Origin: a virus
Reading direction: 5' to 3' (one strand)
IMG/VR virus record: IMGVR_UViG_3300043331_001615
Span: 1 to 23,818 of that record
Length of the DNA: 23,818 nucleotides
Below, piece by piece: positions 7,119-21,880 of this stretch. The notes under the pieces are model-generated. The model saw only the letters and a list, made by a program, of their open reading frames with translations, did no database searches and was not told the DNA's origin. A program made the position numbers and the translations under genes. Each line of letters begins with the position of its first letter. Position 1 is the stretch's first letter.

Positions 7119-7194
7119 GCGCCGCTAGCTCAGCTGGCAGAGCCGCTTCCTTTTAAGTTGCAGGTCCTGGGTTCGATTCCCAGGCGGCGCACCA
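7119..7194 (+). tRNA. tRNA-Lys (anticodon TTT) with encoded CCA
   Basis: A 76-nt cloverleaf. The acceptor GCGCCGC / GCGGCGC has 7 perfect pairs. D-stem GCTC / GAGC. Anticodon loop CTTTTAA with TTT at 7152-7154. T-arm CTGGG-TTCGATT-CCCAG. Discriminator A, then encoded CCA (7192-7194). The anticodon stem GCTTC / GTTGC carries two adjacent T-T mismatches at its 2nd and 3rd pairs from the loop, so only three of five pairs form. The other arms are intact, so it may still be functional. A73 fits lysine identity. Phage tRNAs can match codon use or replace host tRNAs cut by defence nucleases; lysine tRNA is the classic PrrC target. Confidence 0.9.
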
Positions 7195-7219
7195 GACCAA
7201 CCGATTAAGAGGGCACCGC

Positions 7220-7225
7220 TATACT
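7220..7225 (+). promoter_or_regulatory. -10 box TATACT of a leaderless HNH transcript
   Basis: TATACT is followed by 5 bases and then GTG 7231. No spaced Shine-Dalgarno sequence is available (GAGG abuts the start codon), so transcription probably begins at the start codon. No good -35 is visible. Confidence 0.5.
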
Positions 7226-7230
7226 GAGGT

Positions 7231-7728
7231 GTGCCCAATAGCAACGAATACATGCGGCAGTACATGCTGCGCCGGTACCACGCTCGGCGCAGCCACGCCG
7301 TGGCCCAGCTTGGAGGGGCCTGCGTGGAATGCGGAACCACCGAAGAGTTGGAGATCGACCATGTCGATCCGTCCAGGAAGACGATCAACTTGGCAAGGCT
7401 ATGGTCGGTATCCCAGGCTCGATTCGAGTCTGAGCTAACTCTCTGCCAGCTTCTCTGCCGGAAGCATCACCAGGAGAAATCCAGGCGAGAGCTCTCGGTC
7501 GGGCATGGCGAAGGAGCAACCGGCAAGAAAAACTGCCGCTGTGAGCTGTGCGCACCCCTGAAGAATGCCTACGCGGCGAGGCGGCGAGCCACCATCAAGC
7601 GTAACCGCCGCCCCGCACCGCGCTTACTATTCGATGACGAAAGCGCCGATCCACTGGCTGAGCCTGTCGGATTCGTCGCGGGTGAGGTCGTCGGGCAGGT
7701 TGAGGCCGACGATGACCCCGGGGCGTAG
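7231..7728 (+). CDS. HNH endonuclease
   Basis: A metal-dependent DNA nuclease, probably homing-type. Cys31 and Cys34 (CVEC) with Cys72/Cys76 (LCQLLC) form a zinc knuckle. The HNH motif runs from Asp43-His44 (EIDHVDPSRK), with Asn53, to RKHH (His79/80). Residues 102-108 add another Cys cluster (CRCELC). The N-terminal part (YMRQYMLRRYHARR) is basic and likely binds DNA. It lies 36 bases after a tRNA gene, a common site for such elements. Its last 34 codons overlap the convergent gene at 7627-8670 and look non-functional (acidic tail), so the original stop may have been lost. Start at GTG 7231; ATG 7252 is an alternative. Confidence 0.8.
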   Translation: MPNSNEYMRQYMLRRYHARRSHAVAQLGGACVECGTTEELEIDHVDPSRKTINLARLWSVSQARFESELTLCQLLCRKHHQEKSRRELSVGHGEGATGKKNCRCELCAPLKNAYAARRRATIKRNRRPAPRLLFDDESADPLAEPVGFVAGEVVGQVEADDDPGA

Positions 7729-8670
7729 GAGGAAGGTGTATTCGGCCAGCGCCGCTTCATCCTCGACTGCGGTCTCAGCGCCCAATGCCGCTTCGGTTTG
7801 CGCGCGGGCGACCTCAGCGGCTGCCGCGATTCGTGCGGCTTCGATCTTCGCCGCCGTGCGCTCCTCAGCTTCAGCAGCTTCTTGCGCCTGGCGTGCTTTG
7901 CGTTCGCGGGTGAAGGCAAGGGACCGCTGGCGTCGCTCTTCGGTGTCGATCGGCGTGTAGGGGAAATGGCGGACTTCGCAGTAGTGCTCCAGGGCCTTGC
8001 GGAAGCAGCCCTGGTAGTGCCGCATGGTGCTGATCTTGATGATCGGGGCGCGTTTGAGGGCCTCAGCGGCGGCGTCGTCGTAGTCGATGGCTTTGGCCGC
8101 CGCCTTGGTGGCCTTGGCGTCGATCGCGATCTTGCCGAAGTTGGTGAGGATCTGCTCGGTTGTCTCAGGGTCGATGTGCTCTTCGGCCGCGTCGGGTACG
8201 CGCAGCATCACGGCCTTGTAGGCACCGGCCCAGCGCTTCGCCGTTTCGTCTCCGGGGTTGTCCTCTTGGTAGGCGACGAGGTATTCGCCGAAGTCGTCGT
8301 AGATCGGCTTGCGCTTGGGCGCGACGCGGATCTCCGGTGCGGCCGGGACGGTCTCCTCACCGGCGGGTTCGACGTCGAGGCTGCCGGTGAGTTCGACGTG
8401 CTGGAGCATGAACGCGAGGCCGCGCCGGAAGTCACTCGAATAGGTGTTGATCGTTGATTCTTTGAGTTCGGATTGGGCGTTCTCAGCGAACTGCCGGAGG
8501 ATTTTATCGGTGGCCTCGTCGCTGATGGTGGTCGCCGCCAGTCCCGGTACCCGGTGGGCAAAGGCGTTCCAGGCGTTGTAGACGCCCGCGATCTTCTTGT
8601 CGTGCTTGTCGGCGATCCGCCGGTTGTTGACGTAGACGCCTAGGTCGCCGTAGGAAAGTGCGCGCTTCAT
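7627..8670 (-). CDS. Protein with two core-binding-like repeats, no recombinase catalytic domain, 347 aa
   Basis: Function unknown. Residues 29-90 (VYNAWNAFAHRVPG ... TDKILRQFAENA ... STINTYSSDFRRGLAFML) and 147-231 (WAGAYKAVMLRVPD ... TEQILTNFGKIA ... STMRHYQGCFRKALEHYC) are two copies of a helical domain like the N-terminal SAM-like DNA-binding domain of tyrosine recombinases. No catalytic Arg-His-Arg-Tyr domain follows. Residues 243-310 form an Ala/Glu-rich coiled coil, and the last 37 residues (LLRPGVIVGLNLPDDLTRDE) are a compact tail. ATG 8670 has GGAGA upstream; an in-frame TTG at 8709 does not. It may be a DNA-binding architectural or regulatory protein. Confidence 0.8.
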   Translation of the reverse strand: MKRALSYGDLGVYVNNRRIADKHDKKIAGVYNAWNAFAHRVPGLAATTISDEATDKILRQFAENAQSELKESTINTYSSDFRRGLAFMLQHVELTGSLDVEPAGEETVPAAPEIRVAPKRKPIYDDFGEYLVAYQEDNPGDETAKRWAGAYKAVMLRVPDAAEEHIDPETTEQILTNFGKIAIDAKATKAAAKAIDYDDAAAEALKRAPIIKISTMRHYQGCFRKALEHYCEVRHFPYTPIDTEERRQRSLAFTRERKARQAQEAAEAEERTAAKIEAARIAAAAEVARAQTEAALGAETAVEDEAALAEYTFLLRPGVIVGLNLPDDLTRDESDRLSQWIGAFVIE

Positions 8671-8769
8671 GTGGTTCTCCAACGAAGGTCGGTTCTGATA
8701 GCGGCTCAAAGAGCCGTGGTTGAGCAGGGTCAGCGCGTCCCGGCGTGTACCAGCACCCGCAGCAGAACA

Positions 8770-8794
8770 GTCAGTGTAAACCCTGTCACTGTAA
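8770..8794. repeat. Two direct repeats, GTCASTGTAA, 15 bp apart
   Basis: GTCAGTGTAA (8770-8779) and GTCACTGTAA (8785-8794) differ at one base. They lie in the 135-base gap (8671-8805) between the two minus-strand genes, where they could be an operator for the gene starting at 8670. On the minus strand the repeats read TTACASTGAC. Nothing else is recognised in this gap. Confidence 0.45.
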
Positions 8795-8805
8795 GCGTGG
8801 TCTCC

Positions 8806-9228
8806 TCACACTGGCACATGGGCCAGGGTGATGACGGGGATGCCCGCTCGCTCGGCGGTGTTGCGGCAATTGCGTGTGCCGCCGCCGCCGGGGAATGCGA
8901 TGCAGATCGCGGCCCCGAGGCTGACCATGTGTGCGTTGCGTCCGCGCCCGGCCGCACTGTACTGGCTTGGGGGGATGCTGTCCCAGTCCACGGGGTGGTC
9001 TTCGGTCTGCCAGCCCCGTTTGGTGGCTTCCTGCTTGGCGAGCTGGTCGGCGCTGCGGTCGTAGTCGATGGTGCCGTCGGCGCGGCGGTACTTGCAGTCG
9101 CCGTGGACGAGTACGAAATCGCCGGGTGCTGTATGGGGGAAGAGCCCTTCGACGTGGGCCAGCGCTCGGGCGACTGCGGCGCGCCCTGGGAAGCCACGCC
9201 CGCCGGTTGCCAGAACTCGCACTGTCAT
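8806..9228 (-). CDS. SLOG-family (DUF2493/YspA-like) nucleotide-binding protein
   Basis: 140 aa. The features are those of the DUF2493 branch of the SLOG superfamily: MTVRVLATGGRGF at the start, VHGDC (residues 41-45) with DGTIDYDRSADQLAKQEA, HPVDWDSI, then GRGRNAHMV (94-102) and AFPGGGGT (111-118). SLOG folds bind nucleotides or nucleotide-derived signals, and several act as sensors in phage-defence systems. The ligand here is unknown. Translation begins at ATG 9228, 6 nt after a TATTCT box, so the transcript is probably leaderless. It is divergent from the gene at 9269. Confidence 0.8.
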   Translation of the reverse strand: MTVRVLATGGRGFPGRAAVARALAHVEGLFPHTAPGDFVLVHGDCKYRRADGTIDYDRSADQLAKQEATKRGWQTEDHPVDWDSIPPSQYSAAGRGRNAHMVSLGAAICIAFPGGGGTRNCRNTAERAGIPVITLAHVPV

Positions 9229-9234
9229 TGTGTA

Positions 9235-9240
9235 AGAATA
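9235..9240 (-). promoter_or_regulatory. -10 box TATTCT of a leaderless SLOG transcript
   Basis: Minus-strand TATTCT is followed by 6 bases and the ATG at 9228. No Shine-Dalgarno sequence is present. The 9229-9268 gap is the divergent promoter region shared with the + strand gene at 9269. Confidence 0.5.
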
Positions 9241-9268
9241 CCGATTCACGAAAGGCACTCTCACTCTG

Positions 9269-9517
9269 ATGAACACTATCCGCGATCTGATCGATACCCT
9301 TGAAGGGTTCGCTGCTGCCACTGGGGACGAGACTCCGGTGCGCGTGGCAACGATGGGCGTGAAGAAGCCCATGGAATACGCCATCGGCGACATCGACGTG
9401 GTCGAGGTCGGCATCGAGGGCGCGGAGGTGTGGGACACCCGCAGCGTCCTGTACGTGCTGGCCGCCGACAGGGGCCAGCAGCTCGCGCACGAGGCCCGCG
9501 TCAACTTCGCGGGGTAG
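9269..9517 (+). CDS. Small hypothetical protein, 82 aa
   Basis: Not recognised. ATG 9269 has GAAAGG 13 bases upstream, a longer spacing than usual. The product has an N-terminal helix (NTIRDLIDTLEGFAAATG) followed by beta strands (PVRVATM, IDVVEVGIEGAEVWD, VLYVLA). It is soluble and acidic. It is followed after 10 bases by the methyltransferase-like gene and probably shares its transcript. Confidence 0.7.
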   Translation: MNTIRDLIDTLEGFAAATGDETPVRVATMGVKKPMEYAIGDIDVVEVGIEGAEVWDTRSVLYVLAADRGQQLAHEARVNFAG

Positions 9518-15271: not shown

Positions 15272-16441
15272 ATGGAAGAACTCACTGACAAGGCGAAGAG
15301 CTGGGCGTCGATCCTTGAAGAGGGCGCCCGCGAGCAGGTCGAGCGGACGGCGTCGATGCCGTTCGTGTGGCCGCACATGGCGGTCATGCCCGACGCCCAC
15401 CACGGCAAGGGCGCCACCGTCGGGAGCGTCATCCCCACCGACGGCGCGATCATCCCCGCCGCCGTCGGCGTCGACATCGGCTGCGGCATGGCCGCCGTCC
15501 GCACCCGCCACCACATCGACCAGATCGCCCACCTGGATCTGTCGGTGGTGCGCCAGGCCATCGAGCAGGCCATCCCGTTGGGGAAGGGCGGCATCAACAC
15601 GCACCTGACCGAGACGGCCGAGCAGGCGATCGAGTACCTCGAAGCCAAGGCCGTCACGGCCCGCTTCACGCCCTCCTCCTACCTGGGGAACTGGCAGATG
15701 CACCTCGGTTCCCTAGGATCGGGCAACCACTTCTGTGAGCTTTGCGTAGACGAGGAAGGGTTTGTCTGGTTGTTCCTGCATTCGGGCAGCCGAGGCATCG
15801 GCAACCGCATCGCCCAGCACCACATCAAGGTCGCACAGCGACTGTGCGAGCAGTGGTGGATCGACCTGCCCGACAAGGATCTCGCCTACCTCGCCGAGGG
15901 GACGCCCGAGTTCTGGGACTACATCCGCGAAATGATGTGGGCCCAGGATTTCGCCGAACAGAACCGCGTGGAGATGATGCGCCGCATGATCACCGCGTTC
16001 GAGGCGTGGAGCGACTCCGAGATCGTGGTGGACCAGGAGATCAACTGCCACCACAACTACACCGCCAAGGAGCAGCACTGGGGCAAGCAGTTGTGGGTCA
16101 CCCGCAAGGGCGCCATCAACGCCGAGGCGGGCCGCATGGGACTCATCCCCGGCTCGATGGGCACTGCCTCTTACGTCGTGGAAGGCAAGGGGAACGCGGT
16201 CGCGTTCAACTCCAGCCCCCACGGCGCGGGCCGCAACTACTCGCGGACGAAGGCGAAAGCCGCGTTCACCCACGAGCAGCTGCGTGAGCGCATGATCGGC
16301 ATCGAATGGCGTGACAGCGCGGCGTTCCTGGACGAGATCCCCGACGCGTACAAGCCGATCGACCAGATCATGGAAGACGCGGCCGACCTCGTGAGCGTAG
16401 TGCACAAACTGCGCCAGATCGTCAACGTCAAGGGGGAGTAG
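15272..16441 (+). CDS. rtcB: RtcB-type RNA ligase, intact
   Basis: RtcB joins RNA 2',3'-cyclic-phosphate (or 3'-phosphate) ends to 5'-OH ends, using GTP and Mn2+. It repairs or splices tRNA and other cut RNAs. All the key residues are present: GVDIGCGM with Cys71, GSLGSGNHF with His153, LHSGSRGIGN with His170, NCHHNY with His261, and SSPHGAGR with His317, the nucleophile that receives GMP. These match E. coli Cys78, His168, His185, His281 and His337. The length of 389 aa is close to the family norm of about 400. AAAGGA precedes ATG 15272. No RtcA or archease partner is adjacent. A strong hairpin follows the gene. Confidence 0.95.
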   Translation: MEELTDKAKSWASILEEGAREQVERTASMPFVWPHMAVMPDAHHGKGATVGSVIPTDGAIIPAAVGVDIGCGMAAVRTRHHIDQIAHLDLSVVRQAIEQAIPLGKGGINTHLTETAEQAIEYLEAKAVTARFTPSSYLGNWQMHLGSLGSGNHFCELCVDEEGFVWLFLHSGSRGIGNRIAQHHIKVAQRLCEQWWIDLPDKDLAYLAEGTPEFWDYIREMMWAQDFAEQNRVEMMRRMITAFEAWSDSEIVVDQEINCHHNYTAKEQHWGKQLWVTRKGAINAEAGRMGLIPGSMGTASYVVEGKGNAVAFNSSPHGAGRNYSRTKAKAAFTHEQLRERMIGIEWRDSAAFLDEIPDAYKPIDQIMEDAADLVSVVHKLRQIVNVKGE

Positions 16442-20772: not shown

Positions 20773-21267
20773 ATGATCGAAATGACTGCAACCGCATTGG
20801 ATGTGCTCCGTGCCGGTCTTGACTGGCTGTACAGCACCGAGCAGACCGACAACGAATCCATCGTAGACCACCACGGGGTCAGCGCTCCCGTGGTGGACGA
20901 GCGTCGGTACCGGTTCATCCCCTCGGGGTTCCACCGCTCGCCGGTCGTCGTGGTCGATGTCTTCCACCCCCGCTACACGGGGCCGCTTGGCAACCAGACG
21001 CTCGTCAACCCCCTGGAGCCCGGCGAGCTCGCCAGGCTCCAGGCCCAGATCGAGCAGTGGGGTCACGAGGTCCGCTCCACGTGGAATGGCCAAGGGGAGA
21101 CCGGCAGCGTCGGACTGGCAACACCCGCGCACCCGAGCCTGCTGGCGGCGCTGCAACGCCAGCGCGAGGGGTGTCCCGAGCACCGGCCGCAGATCCTCTG
21201 CGGCTGGGACGGCTGCCCCTGGTACCGCACGAACATCGCTAAACTCCAGGTCCCGGAGGGCTGGTAG
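20773..21267 (+). CDS. Hypothetical protein, 164 aa, with C-terminal Cys/His motif
   Basis: Not recognised. GAGGAGGAAAG is the ribosome-binding site of ATG 20773. The N-terminal part is a helix followed by strands (RYRFIPSGFHRSPVVVVDVF). The C-terminal 25 residues carry CPEHRP, CGWDGC and PWYRTN, which give three Cys and a His, possibly a zinc-binding knuckle. Its stop overlaps the next GTG start by one base (21267). Confidence 0.7.
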   Translation: MIEMTATALDVLRAGLDWLYSTEQTDNESIVDHHGVSAPVVDERRYRFIPSGFHRSPVVVVDVFHPRYTGPLGNQTLVNPLEPGELARLQAQIEQWGHEVRSTWNGQGETGSVGLATPAHPSLLAALQRQREGCPEHRPQILCGWDGCPWYRTNIAKLQVPEGW

Positions 21268-21461
21268 TGGACTCGCGCCTCAAGTCTTGGTTCGACGACG
21301 ACGGCCAGCTGTGGGTCCTCTGCGAGCACTGCACCAAGAAGACCCGCGAAGAAGACCTGGCTATTGACCCGACCGACGGGCTCCGCTGGAATGTGTGCGC
21401 TCCATGCAAGCAGAAAGAAACCGAACAGCTCAACATCCACGAAGAAGAGGAAAGCACATGA
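21267..21461 (+). CDS. Small zinc-ribbon protein, 64 aa
   Basis: GTG 21267 overlaps the previous stop by one base. The product contains LCEHCTKKTREEDLAIDP and VCAPCKQKETEQL, that is CEHC and CAPC 28 residues apart, a typical four-Cys zinc ribbon. The C-terminus is acidic (NIHEEEEST). The stop overlaps the next ATG as ATGA, so it is coupled to the ArdA-like gene. Confidence 0.75.
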   Translation: MDSRLKSWFDDDGQLWVLCEHCTKKTREEDLAIDPTDGLRWNVCAPCKQKETEQLNIHEEEEST

Positions 21462-21880
21462 ACGGACCTACGCGAGGCGAGCACACCCTGACCGCTGAAG
21501 TCGGAGCCGACGCCGTGGCGAAACTCGTAGAGAAGTACGGCAAAGACGCCGTTCCGGCAGTCTTCGGCTTCATCGCCAACCACAGGGACTACTCCGTCGC
21601 CGAAGCCTACAAGCGCACCATGGAGTACTACCGAGGCACCTGGGAGGATCTGTCCGAATATCTCGCCCACGCCTTCGCCCCCAAGATGCAGGAAGCATCG
21701 AACACGTACGCTGTGAAACACCAGCTCACCTGGCCATTGCCGGTAGATGACTTCGTCGGCTGCATGAACTGGGACGAGGTCGCGAAGTACGCAACAGACC
21801 ACACCCACGAAGCCTTCCTCACCCACTTTGCCGACCCTGAGAAGGCGTACTTCGTCTTCGAGATTCCCTCGTACAAGTAG
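21458..21880 (+). CDS. ArdA-like antirestriction protein, 140 aa
   Basis: ArdA proteins mimic B-form DNA and block type I restriction enzymes. The match is in the C-terminal half: YRGTWEDLSEYLAHAF (58-73), then WPLPVDDFVGCMNWDEVAKY (92-111) and a closing AYFVFEI (130-136). This follows the order of known ArdA sequences: an acidic helix, a 'yiDw-x-x-Ar' helix and a final beta strand. The first 50 residues fit the middle domain. A full ArdA is about 165 aa, so the N-terminal domain may be missing. Net charge is moderately acidic. The call rests on remembered pattern, not on a search. Confidence 0.6.
   Translation: MNGPTRGEHTLTAEVGADAVAKLVEKYGKDAVPAVFGFIANHRDYSVAEAYKRTMEYYRGTWEDLSEYLAHAFAPKMQEASNTYAVKHQLTWPLPVDDFVGCMNWDEVAKYATDHTHEAFLTHFADPEKAYFVFEIPSYK

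Follow-up and report, generated by a model that had tools for sequence, protein, structure and literature searches.

A Phage Protein with Two Tandem Recombinase-Type Core-Binding Domains and No Catalytic Domain: A Proposed DNA-Binding Regulator Related to PHROG 2602

We analyzed a 23,818-nt stretch of viral DNA (IMG/VR record IMGVR_UViG_3300043331_001615, positions 1 to 23,818; hereafter the window) and focused on the minus-strand open reading frame (ORF) 7627–8670. It encodes a 347-aa protein in which one core-binding (CB) domain of the tyrosine recombinase type is duplicated. No catalytic domain follows the two copies, and the C-terminal tail is common to the small proteins of PHROG 2602. 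The gene is under purifying selection and keeps its location in all three phage genomes in which we found it. We propose, with a probability of about 60%, that the 347-aa protein is a non-catalytic, recombinase-derived regulator that would bind DNA in a sequence-specific manner. The frame runs from the ATG at 8668–8670 to the stop codon at 7627–7629; an alternative ORF call of 360 aa begins at a TTG upstream of this ATG.

The window corresponds, in reverse complement and with 1 base differing, to positions 29,752–53,569 of a 141,154-bp IMG/VR record (G001). The gene is present as a single copy in G001 and in two further phage records, G002 (142 kb) and G003 (138 kb), at 100, 79, and 77% identity, respectively, and its reading frame is unbroken in all of them. 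The order of the surrounding genes is kept as well (30 of 31 query genes in locus L003, 31 of 31 in locus L004). Ratios of nonsynonymous to synonymous substitution rates (dN/dS) were 0.17–0.175 across the three pairs, with 0.13–0.20 for the first CB domain (CB1) and 0.15–0.16 for the second (CB2). The gene is no relic, and we rejected a pseudogene on the basis of these ratios. As the large terminase of G001 is nearest to those of Saccharomonospora phage PIS 136 (42% over 90%) and Gordonia phages, an actinobacterium is its probable host. No carriers beyond the three phages emerged when viral contigs were scanned by pattern. Likewise, tblastn of the 347-aa protein found no match in phage or plasmid records at E ≤ 0.01, nor in phages at E ≤ 10, and the 88 stretches of genome contigs that fit the pattern in a search with profile A1 included no relative.

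Evidence for the duplication came from the sequence itself. The initial annotation, made from the DNA alone, had pointed out paired motifs in the two halves, all of which are present: RVPG (residues 40–43) and RVPD (157–160), DKILRQFA (55–62) and EQILTNFG (172–179), and the pattern Y-x-x-x-FR-x-x-L, which occurs as YSSDFRRGL (77–85) and YQGCFRKAL (219–227). Self-alignment, which it had suggested as a check, gave a local BLOSUM62 score of 65 compared to a shuffle mean of 25.7 (standard deviation 4.6), and none of 2000 shuffles reached this value. Profiles of the two halves (N and M) detected each other, with E-values of 4.5e-7 to 1.8e-4 from M to N and of 2.8e-5 to 1.8e-3 from N to M, and hhalign joined them over 83 columns with a probability of 95.9 (E 5.9e-9). 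The likeness is beyond chance, and the two domains arose from a single CB domain of the tyrosine recombinase type that was duplicated within the protein.

Structural modelling strongly indicates the CB fold for both halves. AlphaFold2 predicted two four-helix domains with block pLDDT values (predicted local distance difference test) of mostly 80–93, followed by a long helix and a poorly modelled end. CB2 is predicted to carry an additional helical insertion between helices 3 and 4 (residues ~184–212, window 8035–8121; modelled helices 185–206). VIA-align, run on Foldseek's top 1000 chains, ranked CB domains of tyrosine recombinases first for both halves, in line with the two recombinase-type domains and the comparison to lambda Int put forward in the initial annotation. 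The lambda Int CB domain (1z1b) aligned to residues 4–93 (Z 7.7, root-mean-square deviation (rmsd) 3.2, 86 residues aligned), 2kob to residues 121–240 (Z 9.2, rmsd 3.0, 88 aligned), XerA (5hxy) to residues 125–240 (Z 6.4, rmsd 3.7, 84 aligned), and a fragment of integrase IntS (2kj8) to residues 120–267 (Z 7.2). Thirteen of the top 14 titles refer to an integrase, a recombinase, lambda excision, or integron recombination, that of 2kob being function-free; XerH, an archaeal Xer, and Cre occupy rows 16, 17, and 20. Since helical models can reach Z-scores of 6–9 through a common arrangement, these values are not decisive alone, and the fold was assigned because the top rows concentrate on one superfamily rather than because of the scores themselves. 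In a phmmer search of the PDB at E ≤ 10, the 347-aa protein had a single, weak match, 2KEY (E 1.9), which is a fragment of a phage integrase. Neither a fold unrelated to SAM-like domains nor a lack of similarity between the halves, the two outcomes named in the initial annotation as refuting it, was observed.

The absence of a catalytic domain, also stated in the initial annotation, was borne out. In the model, CB2 is followed only by a helix, a linker, and a tail of 40 residues, and Pfam detects no catalytic domain. The predicted long helix (residues 243–299), the low-confidence linker, and the compact tail agree with the coiled coil and compact tail described before. The tyrosine recombinase domain PF00589 matched none of the three phage records, which are possibly incomplete, compared to 14 of 14 controls, and the serine resolvase domain PF00239 matched none of the same records compared to 13 of 14 controls. 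A split integrase was rejected, as PF00589 was found in none of the three. Because it has no catalytic domain, the 347-aa protein would be unable to cut and rejoin DNA. A match of residues 189–322 to phrog_617, a major head protein (E 0.0011), scored better than the match to phrog_2602 and was rejected as presumably reflecting the composition of the Ala/Glu-rich helix.

The tail provides the link to other proteins. Modelled alone from the single sequence, it reached a pLDDT of 82, with strands at 308–316 and 319–326 and a helix at 331–345; in fold searches with this model (best VIA Z 3.7, best Foldseek E 1.5) no solved fold stood out. Residues 311–345 match positions 131–170 of phrog_2602 (173 aa, unknown function) with an E-value of 0.0016, and the match between phrog_2602 and the 347-aa protein is confined to this part. 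In hhalign, the tail matched the family of single-CB proteins described below with a probability of 96.8 (E 2.4e-10, ten members) and of 95.1 in another comparison, and the tail profile A5 gave 36.8 bits (0 of 2000 shuffles). Several relatives were found via the tail; the PHROG match, based on a library made by others, is the sole fully independent test of it, and such recruitment affects the CB scores less.

Ten PHROG 2602 members or distant relatives, five from enterobacterial phages or elements and five actinobacterial, were read as one CB-like domain (the N-terminal ~95 residues) plus the tail. They comprise L028 from an actinobacterial genome, P0005 from Yersinia phage YP3, P0006 from a Salmonella element with phage genes, P0008 from Salmonella phage Oslo, P0009 from Escherichia phage phi-8, P0010 from an E. 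coli prophage, and four further proteins, phrog_2602 matching 4 of 396 same-phylum genomes at E ≤ 0.001 and none of 14 controls. P0005 and P0008–P0010 are phrog_2602 proper (E 1.7e-64 to 3.5e-102), while P0006 matched with 1.6e-19 and L028 with 3e-6 over most of its length. The CB profile of the ten proteins scored 17.4 bits with CB1 (0 of 2000 shuffles) and 7.1 bits with CB2 (4 of 2000); profile–profile comparisons of the CB parts alone were weak, with local probabilities of 67 for CB1 and 5 for CB2. None of the ten matched Phage_integrase in Pfam at E ≤ 10, and the best, weak match of their profile in the PDB was the phage-integrase fragment 3nrw (E 0.19). The same tail is found on three small plasmid proteins, P0001, which weakly matches HTH_26 (Cro/C1-type helix-turn-helix, HTH), and P0002 and P0003, whose N-terminal parts have no Pfam match and which we read as possibly winged-helix-like. 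PHROG 2602 shares with the 347-aa protein the beta-beta-alpha tail, the lack of a catalytic domain, and an N-terminal CB-like domain that is similar to CB1 and less clearly so to CB2. The 347-aa protein departs from this layout by having a pair of CB domains and then a predicted long helix before the tail, whereas the PHROG 2602 proteins have a single CB-like domain, no long predicted helix that we could see, and only ~163–205 aa. It is most readily viewed as a relative of the group that has a second CB domain and a helical extension.

Close PHROG 2602 members follow genes encoding repressors of the CI type. In phi-8, the single-CB gene lies immediately after cI on the same strand, and in Oslo it follows cI and one tiny ORF, again on the same strand (AMBK_51, "hypothetical protein"). 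Five E. coli records were matched; in the two whose context was read, both prophages encoding an identical protein, the gene follows an XRE-family repressor gene and a DUF3024 gene on the strand of the repressor. A search of viral contigs with P0009 yielded 19 contigs (73–100% identity). In 18 of these, a CI-type protein, 28–100% identical to one of four reference CIs by tblastn, is encoded upstream on the same strand, and an upstream HTH protein of the 19th (L078) was read as CI-like. The distance between the CI-type and the single-CB gene is 175–591 bp in all 19, and CI varies while the CB-plus-tail gene persists; these contigs represent one close lineage, in which 11 of the 19 contigs encode an identical protein and the regions upstream amount to 9–11 distinct sequences in 5 clusters. 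Other settings were found as well. In YP3, the single-CB gene directly follows a frame read as a tyrosine integrase, itself located after an annotated excisionase, and CI lies further upstream. This frame (L068 4547–5839, ACK3TE_00033) is annotated as hypothetical, and we read it as a P4-type tyrosine integrase. The P0006 gene of the Salmonella element is near a RepA-type helicase gene, with no CI annotated within 8 kb. On the Polymorphobacter plasmid p29334-4 (L016), the HTH-plus-tail gene of P0001 is located after two annotated tyrosine recombinase genes with a small gene between.

Taken together, two CB domains, the missing catalytic half, a tail known from small CB-bearing or weakly HTH-bearing proteins, and relatives near repressor genes suggest a regulator. 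CB domains are DNA clamps. CB1 would grip the double helix from one face, as would CB2, and with both on one chain, a composite site of two recognition segments would be read. The long helix and the beta-beta-alpha tail probably serve to form a multimer or to link a partner. Occupation of such sites, possibly including a conserved block before its own gene, would control transcription, and in this way the protein may also regulate itself. We infer DNA binding rather than show it, in view of the points against the candidate block (overlap, other runs, shuffles, single copy) and of the acidity of the protein.

Several observations weigh against this reading. The fold prediction had only four close sequences as input, its five models reached mean pLDDT values of 76, 66, 65, 40, and 38, and the predicted TM-score (pTM) was 0.46. 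By itself, Foldseek reported nothing at E ≤ 0.001, its best PDB row being a designed repeat protein (E 0.15), and the Z-scores of VIA-align carry the restriction given above. The 347-aa protein has no Pfam match even at E 10, and a PDB search with profile A1 was topped by an unrelated carboxypeptidase (E 0.76). CB2 did not match the first six members of the single-CB family significantly (94 of 2000 shuffles), hhalign of the whole proteins joins the tails only, and just one of the ten proteins (P0009, E 0.047, sub-cut-off, nearly the whole model) matches Phage_int_SAM_1. For single members, unrelated Pfam models equal or beat this model (CagZ with 0.0055 for P0010), and unrelated proteins topped PDB searches with L028 (a catechol dioxygenase, E 0.17) and with the six-member A5 (eL14, 0.89). 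The whole protein is acidic (isoelectric point (pI) 5.3, net charge ~−12), as is CB2 (pI 5.8), compared to a pI of 9.05 for CB1. The 19 CI-associated contigs count as one lineage, and unlike close PHROG 2602 members, the 347-aa gene has no adjoining CI-type gene; its upstream neighbor is of the YAcAr type, with the orthologue likewise placed in G002 and G003.

Within the conserved block, the candidate operator (Table 1), positions 8780–8814 form an invariant run of 35 bases in the three genomes, in a 10-kb alignment of which ~60% of the columns are invariant and which contains nine other invariant runs at least as long; the block furthermore overlaps the end of the upstream gene. The repeats noted at 8770–8794 in the initial annotation are real as sequence (two 11-mers, 9 of 11 positions identical, 15 bp apart) but lie within chance, as 75 of 400 dinucleotide shuffles (19%) of the 135-bp intergenic region equalled them. 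A repeat finder at default settings reported none in this region, and neither 11-mer has a second copy at 0–1 mismatches in the 141-kb G001. We therefore rejected the repeats as a demonstrated operator. A search of the block for a sigma-70-like site gave none, and a k-mer scan of the intergenic regions of G001 revealed no element tied to the 347-aa gene.

The initial annotation had suggested that the protein is architectural. In this case, it would bend, bridge, or compact phage DNA without gene-specific control, the CB pair acting as a double clamp and the helix and tail as a bridge. The underlying description, two CB domains arisen by duplication and no catalytic domain, holds, whereas the architectural role was not established. 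Two DNA-clamp folds on one chain with a predicted long helix would suit such a role, as would the lack of a multi-copy operator motif tied to the gene in G001; on the other hand, the gene is single-copy and located among small genes, and the protein is acidic overall. A regulator is favored over this role because the tail is common to small CB- or HTH-bearing proteins and a CI-type gene lies upstream of close PHROG 2602 members, and we regard an architectural protein as unlikely. Less probable again is an accessory or competitor of recombination, which would occupy core- or arm-type sites (XerCD/dif of the host or the attachment site of another element) and thereby block or shape recombination by a recombinase of the host or of another phage. 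The recombinase-type CB domains, the position of the YP3 relative directly downstream of the integrase-like gene, and the tRNA-Lys adjoining the 347-aa gene would agree with this, tRNA genes being frequent attachment sites. However, none of the three phage records matches a tyrosine or serine recombinase, the tRNA was called as a complete gene, and the upstream neighbor in the 19 contigs is a CI-type gene.

We also considered that both domains are generic four-helix bundles for protein–protein contacts, for instance in an anti-host protein, and that their likeness to recombinases reflects convergence. The silence of Pfam, the acidity of the protein, Z-scores that are not decisive for helical models, and several PDB sequence searches topped by unrelated proteins are in favor of this, but 13 of the 14 top structural rows belong to one superfamily by title, two of five PDB sequence searches were topped by phage-integrase fragments (2KEY, E 1.9; 3nrw, E 0.19; both weak), and P0009 weakly matches Phage_int_SAM_1, so we judge it quite improbable. 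Hardly credible is a functionless, decaying integrase remnant, which the missing catalytic domain and the adjoining tRNA and HNH genes might suggest, as the frame is intact in all three genomes, dN/dS is ~0.17 (~0.13–0.20 for the CB domains), two CB domains are present instead of one truncated integrase, and the CB-plus-tail architecture recurs.

A regulator derived from a recombinase would have a precedent in MrpR (YopR), the master repressor of the Bacillus prophage SPbeta, which according to PMC10516654 and PMC8612738 has a tyrosine-recombinase fold without recombinase function (structure PDB 8A0A, PMC10516654). By analogy, the 347-aa protein may likewise be a non-recombinase that uses a recombinase fold to regulate through DNA binding. 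MrpR has one CB domain and a domain in the catalytic place and binds its element SPBRE at several places, whereas the 347-aa protein has no catalytic-like domain in sequence or model and the candidate element is single-copy in G001. With the tyrosine recombinases lambda Int, XerA, and Tn1549 Int, the protein shares the four-helix CB fold predicted for both domains, but its CB domain is duplicated, its C-terminus is different, and the catalytic domain is missing. The plasmid proteins P0001–P0003 are similar in combining the tail with a small, possibly DNA-binding N-terminal domain; in these, an HTH or another fold replaces the CB domains. A serine-integrase-like gene without a catalytic domain, as reported in PMC5559632, is a different case. 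Our literature search, largely without subscription papers, found neither a tandem-CB protein nor a described function of PHROG 2602.

The features of the locus are listed in Table 1.

Table 1. Features of the tandem-CB locus, in window coordinates.
Feature	Position	Strand	Remarks
Tandem core-binding (CB) protein, gene under study	7627..8670	(-)	ORF with ATG and Shine–Dalgarno sequence
Putative ribosome-binding site GGAGAA	8675..8680	(-)	5' of ATG 8670; GGAGGA in G002 and G003; sequence reading
CB1, residues 5–95, predicted four-helix core-binding (SAM-like) domain	8386..8658	(-)	Model helices 7–20, 25–40, 51–65, 71–95
CB2, residues 121–236, predicted second CB domain	7963..8310	(-)	Model helices 124–137, 142–157, 168–183, 213–234
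Predicted long helix/coiled coil, residues 241–299	7774..7950	(-)	Model helix 243–299
C-terminal beta-beta-alpha tail, residues 308–347	7630..7749	(-)	Common to PHROG 2602
Conserved block, upstream gene end and intergenic; imperfect repeats TTACAGTGACA / TTACACTGACT	8768..8814	(-)	Candidate promoter/operator
Upstream co-directional gene, 147 aa, YspA/YAcAr-type SLOG protein	8806..9249	(-)	PF10686, E 2.5e-6, just under curated cut-off
tRNA-Lys(ttt), convergent with the gene	7119..7194	(+)	ARAGORN
HNH endonuclease gene, between tRNA-Lys and the gene, overlapping its 3' end	7231..7728	(+)	phrog_4234, E 5e-35

The 147-aa YAcAr-type protein shares 88% identity with its counterpart in G002 and 90% with that in G003, and its gene is a possible operon partner. 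Further upstream, positions 9229–9282 comprise 54 consecutive bases that are invariant in the three phages and cover the divergent promoter region between 8806–9249 (−) and 9269–9517 (+), possibly a regulatory element. In G002 and G003, the tRNA-Lys gene has the corresponding position, ~20 bp past the stop codon. The HNH gene is missing there, with no space between stop and tRNA in L003 (by reading) and L004 (by ARAGORN coordinates), and, judged from this comparison, it looks like a homing insertion in the 7195–7626 region.

Additional searches for relatives were largely unproductive. Profile A1, applied to 394 Actinomycetes-class genomes, matched 8 of them at E ≤ 0.1; of the two whose ORFs were read, L028 showed the CB-plus-tail architecture and L033 did not. 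The tail profile A4 matched 237 of the 394 genomes at E ≤ 1. Among the matches listed, G343 (72.7 bits), already one of the sequences in the query, is alone in spanning the whole tail, the others being weak and mostly short. A degenerate DNA pattern of the tail had no match in viral contigs. L027, read as lying within a histidine-kinase-like protein, and L036 were taken as chance matches. The L028 protein found only a weak match to L036 in 197 genomes, only itself in 35 genomes of its own order, and none in plasmids or viral contigs; in phages it found Yersinia phage YP3 (E 0.2), which on reading matched in architecture. When the tail was searched by tblastn in phages, 28 records appeared (E 2–9), from which YP3 was retained. 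Of the others, 26 came from Lactococcus phages, with the match mostly in the prohead protease, and one was a membrane protein of an Arthrobacter phage; these were discarded as chance matches. All six tail matches in plasmids were read and two were dropped: in a Cupriavidus pauculus plasmid, the annotated protein lacks the tail, and in a C. metallidurans plasmid, no gene is annotated at the site.

Other parts of G001 also caught our attention. A cluster of CCACACAG-containing repeats occupies a long intergenic stretch at ~80,629–80,858 (reverse-complement 60,297–60,526) and possibly represents iterons of a replication or partition site. A partition ATPase resembling ParA (phrog_164, E 3.8e-12) is encoded at positions 119,563–120,279 (reverse-complement 20,876–21,592), and small genes come after it. 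Because of this ATPase and because no tyrosine or serine integrase was matched, the phage may be maintained as a prophage in the manner of a plasmid. Window positions 15272–16441 encode a phage RtcB RNA ligase with ~72% DNA identity over ~640–670 bp to Corynebacterium and Rhodococcus phage genes. Five tRNA genes (Val, Leu, Arg, Gly, Pro) lie at ~134.3–134.8 kb of the reverse complement, besides single Met, Tyr, and Lys tRNAs.

Beyond the single gene, we tentatively suggest, at somewhat less than even odds, that phages and bacteria hold unrecognized regulators free of a catalytic domain, composed of one or two CB domains and the tail. Those of lambdoid-type phages would be co-expressed with CI-type immunity and modify it, and the duplicated version of the large actinophage would recognize a composite site with one chain. 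If true, the clamp half of an integrase was detached from the cutting half, given a distinct tail, and doubled in one large phage lineage, and MrpR of SPbeta would exemplify a more general tendency for recombinases to become regulators. A testable role would moreover be assigned to the gene of unknown function that follows the repressor gene in prophages of the lambdoid type, and this gene could be studied in ordinary E. coli lysogens.

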